Shown here one piece after another: positions 49,738-55,832 of a stretch of DNA of 64,000 bases. The notes under the pieces were generated by a model that ran no database searches, was not told the DNA's origin, and saw nothing but the letters and a program-made list of their open reading frames with translations. The DNA lies in contig JAICLZ010000005.1 of assembly GCA_025929535.1 (NCBI GenBank), positions 1 through 64,000 of the forward strand. Direction: 5' to 3'. The stretch comes from Gemmatimonadaceae bacterium (GTDB lineage: Bacteria > Gemmatimonadota > Gemmatimonadetes > Gemmatimonadales > Gemmatimonadaceae). Position 1 is the first letter of the stretch; the number at the start of each line of letters is the position of its first letter. Made by a program: the position numbers and the translations under genes.

Positions 49738-49998
49738 TCGATTGTACATATCAAATGTTTGCGGGGCATTTCGTGTGTACGCTCGCCCGATAATTCAAGG
49801 TCTTTAAGGATTGAAATGCTTGCGTTTGCAAGGCTGTGCTTGAATATTCGGAGCGCGCCCTCTGTTCGAAACGGGGCACACGGCTCACTCGAGCCGGGCA
49901 TGTAGAAGACTGCCGCGAACGTCCCCGCCGGTTCACCATCCGATCGCAAGCCAAAAACCGTGGCCCTCACAGCACCGGGAAACCCGTTGTCGCATGCG
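49738..49998. other. 261-bp AT-richer intergenic region
   Basis: No confident gene. A 29-codon open frame at 49816-49905 begins with ATG five bases after AAGGA, but its composition is not convincing and it has no recognisable motif. The stretch probably holds the promoter of the next gene. The frame of that gene is open back to a GTG at 49960. Confidence 0.3.
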
Positions 49999-50724
49999 AT
50001 GTCGTCGCCGATAGCTGGAAGTGTGCTGCCGCTGGCCGAAGCGGAGCGCCAGCTCCGAACGCTGCCAGGCGTGCTCGACGTGCGGATCGTACCGAGCGAC
50101 ACTGGTGCGGTGAGCGAGGTCCACGTCGTGACGACGATGGAAGTGAACCCGAAGGCGACGGTGCGGAACGTCGAGACGATGCTCAAGGCGTCGCTCAAGA
50201 TGAGCGTGGATCATAGAAAAATTTCAGTGGCGACGAGTAACGAAAATCCGCGCGACCGCGAAGAGTCGCAACGAAATGTTCCAGCGGCACCCGTATCGGC
50301 GCCGGCAGTTGTAACACCGCCTGCCAGTGCGCCGTCGAAGAGTGCGCGACTGTATTTCGAGGATGTCGAAATACAGCGAAGTCGGGCCAAGGGCGTGACA
50401 GTTCGCGTGACTCTCAGAAAGGGGGATCAGTCTTTCGCTGGAGAATGCGAAGGCCACGAGAGTGCACGATCGCGCGCGGAGCTCGCGGCGAAGGGTGCGC
50501 TGCTGGCGATAGCGCAGATCGAGCGCGGTGCGAGCAGCTTCGTGGTCGAGGGATGCAAGGTGATCGAGGCGTTCGACCGGGAGTTCATGTTCGTGGGAAT
50601 CTCGGTACGCGTGGGACGTGAGAACGCGCTGCTCACGGGAAGCTGCGAGATCAAGGACAATCCGGAAACGGCGAGTGTGCTGGCCGTGCTGGATGCGACG
50701 AATAGATGGGTGAGTCGAGCGTAA
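49999..50724 (+). CDS. Conserved hypothetical two-domain protein
   Basis: The 241-residue cytosolic protein has an N-terminal domain (residues about 10-75; LRTLPGVLDVRIVPSDTG, then EVHVVTTMEVNPKATVRNVE, then DHRKISVA) of a kind I have seen in hypothetical proteins of several phyla. An Ala/Pro linker (about 85-115) and a C-terminal alpha/beta domain (about 120-241) that looks like the same element arranged again follow. No catalytic motif is visible. Starts at 49999 (ATG) or 49960 (GTG) are both possible. It marks the edge of the lower-GC island. Confidence 0.7.
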   Translation: MSSPIAGSVLPLAEAERQLRTLPGVLDVRIVPSDTGAVSEVHVVTTMEVNPKATVRNVETMLKASLKMSVDHRKISVATSNENPRDREESQRNVPAAPVSAPAVVTPPASAPSKSARLYFEDVEIQRSRAKGVTVRVTLRKGDQSFAGECEGHESARSRAELAAKGALLAIAQIERGASSFVVEGCKVIEAFDREFMFVGISVRVGRENALLTGSCEIKDNPETASVLAVLDATNRWVSRA

Positions 50725-50819
50725 TTCGAGAGGAGCCGAAAACGATTTCGGCGTGACACAAACAATCAGCTAATGGAGTAAGCGACACACACGAGTCCCC
50801 CCGTTCTCTGGTAAGCGGA

Positions 50820-50848
50820 GTTGAGCGGGCTAGACAGTTGTTGAGCGG
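50820..50848 (+). promoter_or_regulatory. Direct repeat GTTGAGCGG, 20-bp period
   Basis: GTTGAGCGG occurs at 50820-50828 and again at 50840-50848, so the copies lie on the same DNA face about two helical turns apart. A weaker related AAGCGGAG precedes them at 50813. They lie 65 bases upstream of the small open frame at 50914 and could bind an activator of the BTAD type, which recognises direct repeats. Confidence 0.35.
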
Positions 50849-50913
50849 AGCCGACCTTTGCGCGATATCCACTACGGAGTCGCGACTTTGTAATTCAAAG
50901 GGGGGTGACGCGA

Positions 50914-50997
50914 ATGTCAGCTCTAGGATTGGTTCTCAAAGTTATCCGTGTAATCACCGGCGGAATGGTTTCGGCTGAAGTCAAAGTTTGGGTCTAA
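50914..50997 (+). CDS. Possible 27-residue peptide with a Gly-Gly motif
   Basis: The short frame begins with ATG seven bases after a strong purine-rich ribosome binding site (AAAGGGGGG, 50898-50906) and ends with TAA at 50997, just before the HD-GYP gene. The peptide has a hydrophobic, basic first half (SALGLVLKVIRVITGG) and a ten-residue tail MVSAEVKVWV. The Gly-Gly after a helical leader recalls double-glycine export leaders, although the usual acidic residues of such leaders are missing. It could also be a leader peptide controlling the HD-GYP gene. Its expression is unproven. Confidence 0.4.
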   Translation: MSALGLVLKVIRVITGGMVSAEVKVWV

Positions 50998-51023
50998 GCC
51001 AGAAAACGGGGGACTTTACTGTT

Positions 51024-52358
51024 ATGCCGACACGTACTGCGTTGTATGTCGCCTTAGTAAGCGTCTGCGCCGTTCTCGCGAACGGCGCATTGTTTCTGCT
51101 CGCAAATGAGCCGCAGGGTGTCGAAGTTCGCGCTGCTGTTTGGATGGCTACTGTCGGTCTATTCGCTCACGTGGCAATGCATCGCCTACATCGCGGCAGC
51201 GCAGGATCCATCGCATTCATTCCGTGGTTAGCCGCTGCTAGCATCACACCCACGTGGGTCGCGGTCGCGGGTGCGGCGATATCAGTACTGGTCGCAGAAC
51301 TCGCAAAACGTCGTGAGCCAGTCAAGATTCTTTTTAACGTGATGCAGATTTCCCTCGCTATGGGAATCGCGACAATCGCCTTTAGGATTGTCGGTGGGAC
51401 GTCATTGCTCGCGCAGAATTCCTTACCGCTGTTGCAGGGTGCGCGAGAGAACGTGATTCCCATGATGACGCTTATCGCGACGTTCTTTGTCGTGAATGCG
51501 TTCCTTCTATCGGCAGTTATCGCAGTCAGTGAGGGCAGCGGCTTTTTTCATGTCTGGCGCCAGACCGTCAAGGCGAGCGTCTCATACGACCTGCTATCAG
51601 CTCCTGTCGTCTATTTGTTTGCCTGGGTATACGTAAGCGCGGGCATCACGGGAACGATTGCACTCTGCATTCCCGTCATCGGAGTTCGCCAGCTTTACAA
51701 GACAAACTCGGAGCTTGAACGCATCAATCAAGAATTACTCGAGCTGATGGTGAAGGCTATTGAGGCACGAGATCCATATACGTCGGGTCACTCACGCCGT
51801 GTTGCACACTACTCCCAGTTAATCGCACGAGCAATTGGCTTAAGTGGTCAGCAAGTTGAACGAGTGCGTATTGCCGCGCTTCTTCATGATGTCGGAAAGA
51901 TTCACGAGATCTATGCGCCACTTCTGCAAAAGCCGGAGAAACTAACGCCCGCAGAATGGGAGATCATGCAGGGGCACCCGATCAAGAGTGCAGAACTTGT
52001 GATGACCGTGTCCCATCTCGCCGATGTTGTTCTTCCAGTTCGTCACCATCATGAGAACTGGGACGGTAGTGGATACCCCGATGGTCTCACCGGCGAACAG
52101 ATTCCAATAGCTTCGCGAATCGTCTTGTTTGCCGATACCATCGATGCGATGACTACCGACCGACCATATCGAAAGGCATTGGGCGAAGCGCAGGTTCGCG
52201 CTGAGCTGATCAAGTATCGAGGAAAGCAATTCGATCCTTTCATTTGCGACAAGTTGCTTGCAAGCGCGATGTTTGGCCTCTTATTCGCGCCTGGCCAACG
52301 TGTTCCCACCCCTCCGAGTCACGCGGTCTCGCGGCCTCGCGCGTTAAGGGCCATATAG
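51024..52358 (+). CDS. Membrane HD-GYP domain protein (putative c-di-GMP phosphodiesterase)
   Basis: The 444-residue protein has about seven or eight membrane segments (residues about 8-235) and then a short helical linker (TNSELERINQELLELM). The HD-GYP domain follows: HSRRVAHYS, the metal pair in LLHDVGKIH, HHHENWDGSGYPDGLTGEQIP and the late FADTIDAMTTDRPY. All ligands look intact, so c-di-GMP or related dinucleotide hydrolysis is likely. ATG 51024 follows a GGGGG purine run; the frame is open to TTG 50988. Local GC (about 53% in a sampled line) is well below the rest of the window, suggesting transfer. Confidence 0.9.
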   Translation: MPTRTALYVALVSVCAVLANGALFLLANEPQGVEVRAAVWMATVGLFAHVAMHRLHRGSAGSIAFIPWLAAASITPTWVAVAGAAISVLVAELAKRREPVKILFNVMQISLAMGIATIAFRIVGGTSLLAQNSLPLLQGARENVIPMMTLIATFFVVNAFLLSAVIAVSEGSGFFHVWRQTVKASVSYDLLSAPVVYLFAWVYVSAGITGTIALCIPVIGVRQLYKTNSELERINQELLELMVKAIEARDPYTSGHSRRVAHYSQLIARAIGLSGQQVERVRIAALLHDVGKIHEIYAPLLQKPEKLTPAEWEIMQGHPIKSAELVMTVSHLADVVLPVRHHHENWDGSGYPDGLTGEQIPIASRIVLFADTIDAMTTDRPYRKALGEAQVRAELIKYRGKQFDPFICDKLLASAMFGLLFAPGQRVPTPPSHAVSRPRALRAI

Positions 52359-52560
52359 CCCATCGAGTCGAGCGCTCGTGTGGGGTTGTTGAGCACCTCG
52401 CCGCTGCAGCTTTGGGCTTCAGATCTGTCGCGATTTCCCGAACACACTTGAGCGAGTCGAGTAACGTTCTGGAGCGCAGCACATGACACTTTGGTTGTTC
52501 ACCAGCGTTGCTATCGCGAACCCTTCGCGAGCGGCTTTCGCGTCTTTCAGAGTGATCGAC
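52359..52560. other. 202-bp gap between convergent HD-GYP and BTAD-regulator genes
   Basis: No gene is seen. A hairpin TCGCGAA-CCC-TTCGCGA (52514-52530) lies 31 bases beyond the end of the minus-strand gene. It has no T-run on either side, so it is at best a weak shared terminator. Confidence 0.35.
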
Positions 52561-55500
52561 TCAGGATTTCATCATTATTAGCGTGTCTTCCTCGCCACGC
52601 TCACTGGCCATCCGACTCAATATCGCTGCTAACGGTATCGAGATAGCGCTGCGATCTCGGCGAAACGTGGATACGTAGTCTCTCGCCAGGCACTCGGCCT
52701 CAGTCCGACGACTCGCGGAGAGTAAGCCCAGTAGGATCGATTCCACCGTATAATCCTGCCAAGTCGCGACTTTCACTACATTGTACGCGTGCAAGAAAGT
52801 GCTCAGATGCGACTCAGAAAGCTGTTCCCCTTTCAATACGGCTAGTTGCGTCTGCAGGGACAAACCGCGAGCGAAACTTCTTGAGGAGTTTACTCTGGCG
52901 ACTGATGGTTGGCACCGAGACAACGATGTCTCAGCGTCATTGCTGTCTCCTTGACGAATAGCCAACTCCGCTAAGTAACTCCAGGTATTTACGTCTGATA
53001 CGGTGGTAACGCCCGGAGCGTACGAACCGCGCACACGTTGCAGCCAATCGCGCGCGGAGTCGTTGTCTCCGAGCTGCATTAGCGTTGAGGCCACCTCATT
53101 CGCACTCGACACTATTGCTGCGACGGCGCTCCCGCGGGCAGCAATTCGGTAAGACTCTTCCGCCACCTTTAAGGCATCGCGTGCGTCTCCGTGACAACGG
53201 TATACGTGAGCGATATGGCGGAGATATCGCACGGCGACCATGGGAGGACTTACTCGCCGCGCATAATCCTCCAATTCTTGGGCAAAAGGAACAGAAAGGT
53301 GACTTTCTCCGCTGCAACAATGGTACACCATTAAGAAGTAGAGACGTGAGTCACACTCAACGTCTCGCGACTCGAGGTAAGGTGCGATTCGCTCGAAGAT
53401 GCGCTGACCTAGAGCGATGTCACAGAGATTGTCCGCCGCAGTCAGGAGCCATTTGGCCGCTGAAACACGTTCGCCCGGCGATGCTATGTCTGATGAGAGA
53501 GCAGCGAGACAATCACTAACGAGCTCGGGTATCGAGTCCCCACTTGCCCATCTCGCATGAAGTGACATGACGCCGACTTCATCAAGTGGTGAAGGTGGCG
53601 GATAGATCGATTTGCGCAATTGAAGAAGTCCGTCAATGACTGCGACCGCACCGATCGAGTGTTCAGCGCGCATTAGCGCTCGGGCGCGCTCGGTACCGAT
53701 CGCGTACCTCTCAGACGGGATAAGTGTCAAACACTCAGCGCGTCCGAGAACTTCGGCTGCTTCCTCCGGCAGGCCCACATCCATCAGATAAGTTCCGCAG
53801 CGGCGAAGCATTTCGATCGCTCTTGGGGCATCCGCCGCCAGCAACCAATGTTCAGCGCTTTCCCAAATCAAGCTGACTGAGTGCGTGACATCGGCTTCGG
53901 ACTCCAGTTCGGCTGCAACGAAGCGATGCAATAGGGACTTCGCGGCTGTGCTCATCTGTGTAAGTACTACGGAGGAAAGAAGATCATGTCGACTCAGAGC
54001 TCGAGGGCCGTCGACGACTATCATCCCGCTCACGTCGAGTTCTGCCAAAGAACGCAGGACGGCCACGCGAGAGAGCCCAATACAAGATTCAATGCGCTCC
54101 ATCGTAGAGTGCTTTCCGAGAACGCAGCACACCTCTAGGAGCCCCCGCGCGTCCGCGCTCAGTAGCAATACTCGAGTTTGAAGAAGCCGCGCCAATGATT
54201 CAGGGGCGCGGAATCCGTGATGCTCCTTCTTCCCTTCTCTCAGGAGTTCAATCAAGTAATAGGGATTCCCGCCGGACGAGCCTATGCACCACGAAAGAAA
54301 TGTCTCCTCGTTAGACGGACCGCCGTTCGTTGCCAAGGAATGCGCGACGCGCGCACTTTCTTCTGTGCGAAGAGGGCGAAGCACCAGAGCAGTGATGCGC
54401 TCTCCTGAGGTAGCGGGCGTTCGCGAAGTTAGAAGGACCAGTACTCGACGCGAACTAATCCAATTCGATAGCTCTTCGAGCATGAGAACGGACTGCATGT
54501 CAAGCCACTGAATATCTTCAAGCTCAATCAAGCAACACCTCTCGCCTGCCACTGCGTCGAACAAGTCCACCAAAGCCAATCGCGCAGATTTGTAGGCGCC
54601 ATCGTCGTCCTGCGCTTGTTGCCTCTCCCGCACCTCTTTCGGATCATGCGCAGTCAGCCGCCGCAAGTACTTCATCGACTCCGGAGAGCACCCCAGCGCC
54701 CCCGGGAGCGCGAGTAGCTTCGGCACCATGTCCACGAACGCCGAGAGTGGTCGCCGCACGTCGTGCGATTGGCATCCCACGCGTACGATGTGCACGCGTT
54801 GCAGCGCGGCTACGCGCGTGAACTCCTGCACGAGCCTCGTCTTGCCAATGCCGGGCTCGCCCCAGATCACATACGCGCTTCCGTTTCCAGCCTGAGCTCG
54901 CGCCAGCGCGCCTGTGAGCTCCGACATCTCCTCCTCGCGTCCGACGAATGGAGCATCGCGAACGGGGAAGATGTTGTTTTGATATGCTTCGGAGATGCGG
55001 CGTCGCAATAAAACTGCGGGAAGCTTTATCTCGCTCGCATTCTCTCCGATGTCTTCGAGATAGCGATTGAGAATCGTCAGCGCCTTCGTCTTGCTGCCAC
55101 CCAGCGCTGCGGCTTCTGCCACGGTGAGCGTCGCTTCCTCATTGAGTGGATCCATCGTCAGGCACAGCGAGGCGAACTGCTCCGCTCCATTCCAATCGCT
55201 CACTCGCTTCTTCGCCTGCATGCCACTCACGAGCACCCTGGAAAGTGCCGAGTGCACCATGTCTCGCTGGCGCTCGACCCAACTCCCGAATTCATCTGAT
55301 AGCTGCGGGCGATACCCGGGCAGGAAGCTGCCGCCAATGTTCGATGCGAGCAGTTCCAGCGTCGCAGGCGACTGCGGCGCGAGTAGCTCAGCGAAATCGG
55401 TCGAACAGAATCGCGGGTCCAGGATGAGCGCCGCACGATCTGCCTTGATCAGGGCCCCCAGCGTTTTCAGACGGTAGAGTACCTGGCGCAAACCGTGTTG

Positions 55501-55725
55501 CGCCTGGGTCTCCGACACACCCGGCCAAAAGAAACGGGTCAGCTCATCCCGACCGACCGGTCGACCCGTTTCGATGATGAGGTACAGCGCGGTCGCGAAA
55601 ACCGTTTCTGCGGCAGGCGTGAGGCGAGCATCATCGACCTCGATGAGAGTCTGTCCCAGGCTCTTGAGCCGCAGCATACACTCCCGGTTTCGTCGCTGAG
55701 CGTGCCCCTCGCCAGCCTCTGACAT
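52561..55725 (-). CDS. Large BTAD-type regulator with STAND-like ATPase and TPR repeats
   Basis: The 1054-residue protein combines an N-terminal winged-helix region (residues about 18-110; FWPGVSETQAQHGLRQVLYRLK is typical of SARP/BTAD regulators), a BTAD helical domain (about 130-250), an AAA/STAND ATPase (about 270-560; FVGREEEM, Walker A GEPGIGKTRLV, Walker B-like CLIELEDIQWLD) and a long TPR-like helical region (about 620-1050). Such proteins are ATP-gated transcription regulators whose TPR part senses a ligand or partner. GC content and codon use differ from the flanks. An internal ATG at 55677 is an alternative start. Confidence 0.88.
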   Translation of the reverse strand: MSEAGEGHAQRRNRECMLRLKSLGQTLIEVDDARLTPAAETVFATALYLIIETGRPVGRDELTRFFWPGVSETQAQHGLRQVLYRLKTLGALIKADRAALILDPRFCSTDFAELLAPQSPATLELLASNIGGSFLPGYRPQLSDEFGSWVERQRDMVHSALSRVLVSGMQAKKRVSDWNGAEQFASLCLTMDPLNEEATLTVAEAAALGGSKTKALTILNRYLEDIGENASEIKLPAVLLRRRISEAYQNNIFPVRDAPFVGREEEMSELTGALARAQAGNGSAYVIWGEPGIGKTRLVQEFTRVAALQRVHIVRVGCQSHDVRRPLSAFVDMVPKLLALPGALGCSPESMKYLRRLTAHDPKEVRERQQAQDDDGAYKSARLALVDLFDAVAGERCCLIELEDIQWLDMQSVLMLEELSNWISSRRVLVLLTSRTPATSGERITALVLRPLRTEESARVAHSLATNGGPSNEETFLSWCIGSSGGNPYYLIELLREGKKEHHGFRAPESLARLLQTRVLLLSADARGLLEVCCVLGKHSTMERIESCIGLSRVAVLRSLAELDVSGMIVVDGPRALSRHDLLSSVVLTQMSTAAKSLLHRFVAAELESEADVTHSVSLIWESAEHWLLAADAPRAIEMLRRCGTYLMDVGLPEEAAEVLGRAECLTLIPSERYAIGTERARALMRAEHSIGAVAVIDGLLQLRKSIYPPPSPLDEVGVMSLHARWASGDSIPELVSDCLAALSSDIASPGERVSAAKWLLTAADNLCDIALGQRIFERIAPYLESRDVECDSRLYFLMVYHCCSGESHLSVPFAQELEDYARRVSPPMVAVRYLRHIAHVYRCHGDARDALKVAEESYRIAARGSAVAAIVSSANEVASTLMQLGDNDSARDWLQRVRGSYAPGVTTVSDVNTWSYLAELAIRQGDSNDAETSLSRCQPSVARVNSSRSFARGLSLQTQLAVLKGEQLSESHLSTFLHAYNVVKVATWQDYTVESILLGLLSASRRTEAECLARDYVSTFRRDRSAISIPLAAILSRMASERGEEDTLIMMKS

Positions 55726-55832
55726 GGCTAGGCGACAACGTCAGCGTTCCGTCATCAAGAATTCTTCGTGTCTACTCTATTCCTCGAGGGTTTGAACGTA
55801 AAGGGTGCTCTTCGCGCGCATTGCGGGAGCAA

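Follow-up and report, generated by a model that had tools for sequence, protein, structure and literature searches.

A tryptophan-tailed small peptide gene inside a structured leader RNA precedes a membrane HD-GYP protein with a hypervariable membrane domain in Gemmatimonadota: a candidate peptide-signalling locus

We analyzed a low-GC block in a 64,000-nucleotide stretch of the genome of a Gemmatimonadaceae bacterium (positions 1 to 64,000 of contig JAICLZ010000005.1, assembly GCA_025929535.1; hereafter the window), in which a small open reading frame (ORF) lies ahead of a gene for a membrane HD-GYP protein and a convergent gene for a large BTAD/STAND regulator. A preliminary description, made from the letters of the window, had listed a possible 27-residue peptide with a strong ribosome-binding site, a direct repeat in front of it and these two genes, and had read them as a transferred peptide-sensing unit linked to cyclic di-GMP (c-di-GMP). 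All the parts named there exist (HD-GYP at 51024-52358, the regulator convergent), and the block holds more, namely a structured leader RNA (about 50794-51016), which takes in the repeat, the ribosome-binding site and the small ORF together with its 3' flank. The features are:

49960-50724, plus strand: protein of unknown function, 238-254 amino acids (aa), start uncertain, synteny conserved
50794-50811, plus strand: 5' arm of the long-range closing helix (AGTCCCCCCGTTCTCTGG), pairing with 50999-51016
50820-50848, plus strand: direct repeat, GTTGAGCGG twice, conserved core of the leader (alignments of relatives; shuffle test)
50843-50856, plus strand: helix P1, anti-Shine-Dalgarno strand (GAGCGGAGCCGACC; RNAalifold and pair counts in 82 distinct sequences)
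50860-50886, plus strand: hairpin P2 (covariation)
50900-50911, plus strand: strong Shine-Dalgarno sequence and spacer (GGGGGGTGACGC), the 3' strand of P1 (pairing with the P1 5' strand)
50914-50997, plus strand: small ORF, candidate signal pre-peptide, MSALGLVLKVIRVITGGMVSAEVKVWV plus stop (77 distinct relatives; in-frame selection)
50999-51016, plus strand: 3' arm of the closing helix (CCAGAAAACGGGGGACTT), 1 nt past the stop codon and 7 nt ahead of the HD-GYP start
51024-52358, plus strand: predicted membrane HD-GYP phosphodiesterase, MASE9-type part about 1-220, catalytic part about 235-430
52561-55725, minus strand: BTAD/STAND regulator, 1054 aa, with an N-terminal winged-helix/BTAD part, an AAA_16 NTPase and a C-terminal TPR part at about 650-1054

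Relatives of the HD-GYP protein were found in 80 contigs, nearly throughout from Gemmatimonadota; the closest are mostly metagenome-assembled genomes (MAGs), and the evidence is comparative throughout. Where the flanks allow, most Gemmatimonadota loci examined share one gene order: MogA (at some loci), a sigma-54 regulator, the 238-aa protein, the RNA with the peptide, HD-GYP and the convergent BTAD/STAND regulator. The peptide, HD-GYP and BTAD/STAND neighbourhood seen in the window is present as a whole in most of them, and the 238-aa protein, which has no match in Pfam or NCBIfam, is its constant upstream neighbour. Among 298 sampled Gemmatimonadota genomes, 86 carry the folded RNA element, and all but three of the 86 (83) belong to the family of the window; the element is found once in the window's genome and is nearly always single-copy in the positive genomes. 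Of 19 family genomes without the element, 18 also have no HD-GYP gene (E<=1e-60), though in at least three of them the contig ends at the locus; in the remaining one, where HD-GYP is present, the leader is diverged and the ORF ends in WW.

The fall in base composition reported earlier is present: sliding GC is 0.54-0.57 at 51.0-54.5 kb vs 0.65-0.70 in the surroundings. GC and GC at third codon positions (GC3) are 0.542 and 0.57 in the HD-GYP gene and 0.577 and 0.62 in the BTAD gene, and nearby genes have a GC3 of 0.87-0.89. The breaks placed at about 50.7 and 55.8 kb are real as a drop in GC and GC3, but the edges are gradual, with intermediate values in the 238-aa gene upstream, which has a GC3 of 0.70, and over the initial third of the BTAD gene. 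The HD-GYP gene is low-GC in nearly all relatives (L017 is the exception), with a mean of 0.562 over 53 loci vs 0.666 for the sigma-54 regulator gene over 52 loci. Since the low-GC HD-GYP gene and the same synteny are shared across the family and beyond, the block has not been imported recently; judged from these relatives, its low GC is ancestral.

The small ORF of 27 codons, preceded by the Shine-Dalgarno sequence GGGGGGTGA, is by comparison of its relatives a real conserved gene under protein-level selection, in support of the peptide listed as possible in the preliminary description. A short ORF with a near-perfect Shine-Dalgarno sequence precedes HD-GYP in almost every relative, and the ratio of non-synonymous to synonymous differences (pN/pS) is 0.26-0.48 in frame vs 0.8-2.2 in shifted frames. 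The 77 distinct peptides are 15-39 residues long, 23 being the commonest length, and 70 of them have Trp within the last two residues (a Trp or Trp-X end); this C-terminal Trp is retained where little else is. In one subclade (L073, L074, L078 and L082) the peptides end without it (FADGTVSI and similar) and the G and C strands of the closing helix are swapped; in another, Trp lies 5-6 residues before the peptide end. Genome G026 also carries an orphan leader-like element (L121:1182-1410) with a Trp-tailed ORF, MMDFLSSAWNAVAKIAAALSGGIEWQ, which adjoins the 238-aa gene; behind it come a terminator-like hairpin and no HD-GYP gene. The genome has its HD-GYP gene at a distance of about 13 kb, preceded by a separate leader and ORF.

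The leader RNA around the ORF contains three helices. The two GTTGAGCGG copies lie at 50820-50828 and 50840-50848, and no such spaced pair was seen in 100 shuffles of the window. The second copy takes part in P1, in which GAGCGGAGCC pairs with the Shine-Dalgarno region of the small ORF (50845-50847/50909-50911, 50850-50852/50904-50906 and 50855-50856/50901-50902). The proposal that the repeat is an operator of the BTAD regulator is not supported, in view of this pairing and of its place in the invariant core of the RNA. In the 82 distinct sequences, two P1 segments are paired in 91% and 99% of cells with no two-sided changes; being nearly invariant, P1 shows little covariation of its own. P2 is paired in 95.8% of cells, with 11 pairs changed on both sides; its covariation is 0.345 vs at most 0.053 in slid controls in alignment A3, which was fitted to the RNA model and is biased towards it, and the picture is unchanged in the smaller MAFFT alignment A2 (0.304 vs at most 0.068). 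Misalignment accounts for the absence of P2 from the RNAalifold result on the first MAFFT alignment. The arms of the closing helix co-change between clades (CCCCCG/CGGGGG, CCCGUUCCCG/CGGGAACGGG and AGGGGACCCGA/UCGGGUCCCCU); for located arms in 66 distinct loci the mean energy is -29.4 for cognate vs -22.3 for non-cognate pairs, and the cognate arm ranks first among 21 in 22 loci, about three being expected. A broader duplex test was noisy (18 of 69 ranked best), and the window leader folded alone is mildly unusual (z -2.0). In most loci the 3' arm starts within a few bases of the ORF stop.

No credible match to Rfam 15 (4227 models) was found for the window and 10 relatives, and, so far as Rfam 15 and the open-access literature searched show, the leader is a previously undescribed structured RNA; its conserved fold and predicted sequestration of the Shine-Dalgarno sequence may or may not amount to the fold and expression platform of a metabolite riboswitch. 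The HD-GYP gene of the window has no canonical ribosome-binding site of its own, a G-run aside. A scan of 50600-52700 found no sigma-70 promoter, and the sole terminator-like site lies inside HD-GYP: at 51066-51089, within its start, a ten-pair hairpin is followed by TTGTTTCT. The same hairpin occurs at the same place (+41) in L009-L012, with pairing kept and the surrounding sequence diverged.

The HD-GYP protein matches the Pfam models HD_5 (2e-36) and MASE9 (9.5e-9; 35.9 bits, the cut-off being 24.3), in agreement with its first description as a membrane protein; 22 of 26 orthologs match MASE9, and the HD motif, the HHE..DG.GYP motif and the metal ligands are invariant in all 26. The enzyme probably hydrolyses c-di-GMP or a related cyclic dinucleotide; its best profile match is a 3'3'-cGAMP-specific HD-GYP enzyme. 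An AlphaFold2 model (predicted local distance difference test 86.7) has several membrane helices and a long helix, 193-247, that runs into the catalytic domain, and a Foldseek search gave HD-GYP enzyme structures as the closest solved relatives of the catalytic part. The membrane part has a weak likeness to the ECF S-components ThiT and RibU (TMt 0.56-0.65), which hints at a ligand-binding fold and speaks for a sensor. In the BTAD/STAND regulator the ATPase and TPR parts proposed earlier are matched (AAA_16 and TPR); the Pfam BTAD model matches 8 of 24 orthologs but not the window protein (E<=0.01). AAA_16 is found in all 24 and TPR models in several, the C-terminal TPR part is hypervariable, and the window's genome has no close paralog of the regulator.

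Comparison of close relatives shows that near-identical surroundings carry differing peptide tails and differing HD-GYP alleles. In pairs with 238-aa proteins 97-99% identical, the HD-GYP membrane domains are often 60-69% and up to 88% identical, and the catalytic domains 89-97%; synonymous sites of HD-GYP are saturated next to flanks with a synonymous divergence (dS) of 0.1-0.5. In L044/L114 identity at four-fold sites is 0.95 in the 238-aa gene, 0.20 in the HD-GYP membrane part and 0.31 in the catalytic part, the average of unrelated pairs being 0.29, while the leaders are identical (1.00) and the catalytic proteins 90% identical. HD-GYP is not replaced in L022/L023 and L017/L102 (0.64-0.74), which have nearly the same tail. 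Where alleles have been replaced, the identity of HD-GYP jumps at residue about 220, from 45-71% before it to mostly 82-94% behind it, and the BTAD TPR region is 22-36% identical vs 53-71% for the N part. L028, L033, L096 and L072 hardly differ in the leader and in the N-terminal part of the peptide, and around Trp they have ALIWG, SIVWN, FMVWG and YIIWR; the leader is about 98% identical in nucleotides where the codons around Trp differ. On this comparative evidence, diverged HD-GYP/BTAD alleles swap within a fixed slot of chromosomes that are otherwise near-identical. Two contigs of one MAG (MGR_bin412; L010 and L012) have leaders that match and peptides and HD-GYP alleles that differ. The leader is a recurrent end point of MAG contigs (G033, G202, G083, G021, G211, G250 and G185), some of these MAGs having the same stretch on two contig ends; contig ends at this position are expected if several alleles share one leader.

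Tail similarity tracks the HD-GYP membrane domain after controls in two tests (r=0.195, p=0.002; r=0.258, p=0.0025), and also when the leader, the peptide N-terminus, the catalytic domain and the 238-aa protein are all controlled (r=0.155, p=0.003). It does not track the catalytic domain. For the BTAD TPR region there is an association with the membrane domain (r=0.278, p=0.0025), and the tail shows no association with the TPR region once the membrane domain is controlled (r=0.015). The putative signal and its sensor domain thus diverge together while the flanks are near-identical, as would be looked for in allele-group signalling. A simple hydropathy scan of the window's genome gave no membrane HD-GYP paralogs usable as a control for domain divergence.

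Taken together, these comparisons make it probable, in our judgement, that the locus encodes a peptide signal and a membrane HD-GYP phosphodiesterase that senses it, in allele groups comparable to those of ComX/ComP and under the control of an RNA leader; the sensing half of the preliminary proposal is the best comparative reading, and recent transfer, its other half, is not upheld. The small ORF would yield a short hydrophobic pre-peptide, of which the last 5-7 residues around the near-invariant Trp would be the variable signal. Once exported, the tail would be sensed by the polytopic membrane domain of HD-GYP, and the breakdown of c-di-GMP, or of a cyclic dinucleotide related to it, would be tuned accordingly. 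A second output or sensor of the locus may be the convergent BTAD/STAND/TPR regulator. In the closed leader P1 would hide the ribosome-binding site of the peptide and the closing helix would cover the stretch before HD-GYP, until a ribosome at the peptide stop codon opened the closing helix and HD-GYP could be made. The comparisons themselves show that the ORF is coding, that the RNA is structured, that synteny is kept, that alleles are replaced, that particular domains are hypervariable and that the tail is associated with the membrane domain; export and maturation of the peptide, its binding to HD-GYP, the direction of its effect, translational coupling and the role of the BTAD protein are the steps that we infer.

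Several observations weigh against this signalling interpretation. The conserved block has no exporter or maturation gene among its members, and the peptides do not begin with a classical positively charged signal-peptide start. The Foldseek matches of the modelled membrane part have E values of at least 0.5. The correlations come from Mantel-type permutation tests on related sequences, which are approximate; a weak correlation with the membrane domain is seen for the leader as well (r=0.12, p=0.03), and physical adjacency of the tail and the membrane domain means that linkage may cause part of their correlation. Because the closest relatives are mostly MAGs, mixing of alleles inside MAG bins is possible.

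It is rather unlikely that the small ORF is a cis-acting upstream ORF (uORF) only, encoding a leader or arrest peptide idle in trans, with stalling or termination at the Trp/stop end opening the long-range helix and switching HD-GYP on as a response to a small molecule, to the supply of tryptophan or to the state of the ribosome. The 3' arm close to the stop in most loci, the very strong Shine-Dalgarno sequence sequestered by P1 and the window HD-GYP gene with nothing but a G-run for a ribosome-binding site would all fit such a switch, and structured RNAs with uORFs are known (odc1 and ilvB-II; PMC8632094, PMC10272879). A leader peptide, however, need not vary exactly around Trp or track the HD-GYP membrane domain; Trp is absent in one subclade and 5-6 residues from the end in another, and one genome has a leader and Trp-tailed ORF with their own terminator-like hairpin and no HD-GYP after them. 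In another, improbable explanation, the membrane and TPR regions simply change quickly because little constrains them, the replacement comes from homologous recombination of the ordinary kind, and linkage underlies the tail correlation: such regions are often faster than catalytic ones, and the peptide adjoins the membrane domain, but the tail association survives all the controls listed above, and relaxed constraint is insufficient, since saturation of synonymous sites extends to the conserved catalytic domain, next to flanks that are near-identical.

That the peptide is a small toxin or a bacteriocin-like self-recognition molecule, with the variable membrane domain as cognate immunity or detection, appears quite improbable: the hydrophobic 15-39-aa peptide, the allele replacement and the hypervariable partners do resemble bacteriocin or kin-recognition loci, yet the locus is single-copy with fixed synteny in most genomes, the partner enzyme keeps all HD-GYP motif residues, and there is neither an exporter nor a separate immunity gene. 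Judged by distribution, and not by an antisense RNA, a type I toxin does not fit: it would be scattered and often multi-copy, and here nearly every positive genome has one copy in fixed synteny. A recently transferred low-GC island is extremely improbable; the GC drop would suggest it, but low GC and synteny are the same across relatives (0.562 vs 0.666).

Peptide signalling with allele groups is known mainly in Firmicutes, where it acts via histidine kinases or cytosolic regulators. Our search of the open-access literature turned up neither a report of peptide signalling in Gemmatimonadota nor one of an HD-GYP enzyme acting as a peptide receptor, and it gave no prior description of this system. 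The locus may, though we put this tentatively and somewhat below an even chance, represent a new class of cell-cell signalling in Gemmatimonadota, in which a Trp-tailed peptide is read directly by a polytopic membrane HD-GYP protein and an outside peptide sets cyclic-dinucleotide levels in one step, with allele groups, a second hypervariable TPR sensor and a new RNA class holding the signal gene. If so, one and the same protein would couple an external peptide to a second messenger, in a phylum that is abundant in soil; the known RNA classes would gain one that carries a signal gene within it, and the peptide sequences could be tested directly.

Parts of the locus resemble several known systems. 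In SHP/Rgg and other RRNPP systems a hydrophobic pre-peptide of about 20 residues yields a short C-terminal signal, often starting from an acidic residue, and a TPR regulator lies nearby. These traits recur here, the short signal being putative, but the TPR protein is of the BTAD/STAND type and shows no tail tracking after membrane-domain control. ComQXPA of Bacillus has a very variable short precursor with Trp near its C-terminus, a cognate variable membrane sensor and pherotypes (PMC4008528). Our locus shares the Trp near the end of a short variable peptide (70 of 77), the variable, presumably cognate membrane sensor and the allele groups among close strains; it differs in that neither a ComQ prenyltransferase nor a ComP histidine kinase adjoins the ORF, whose neighbours are the 238-aa protein and HD-GYP, in the structured RNA around the peptide ORF and in the phylum. 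In odc1 and other uORFC classes structured RNA hides a ribosome-binding site and a conserved short ORF precedes the main gene (PMC8632094), as in our leader, which differs in sequence, structure and phylum and has a long-range helix reaching past the uORF stop, a variable tail and no Rfam match. The HD-GYP protein is like MASE9-HD-GYP phosphodiesterases in its MASE9 and HD_5 matches and its structural relatives; here, in contrast, the membrane domain is hypervariable even among close strains, and a peptide encoded in cis is paired with it. The regulator, finally, resembles AfsR/SARP-like proteins in its BTAD (8 of 24 orthologs), AAA_16 and TPR parts, and is set apart from them by being itself a convergent, vertically conserved companion of HD-GYP and by its hypervariable TPR region.

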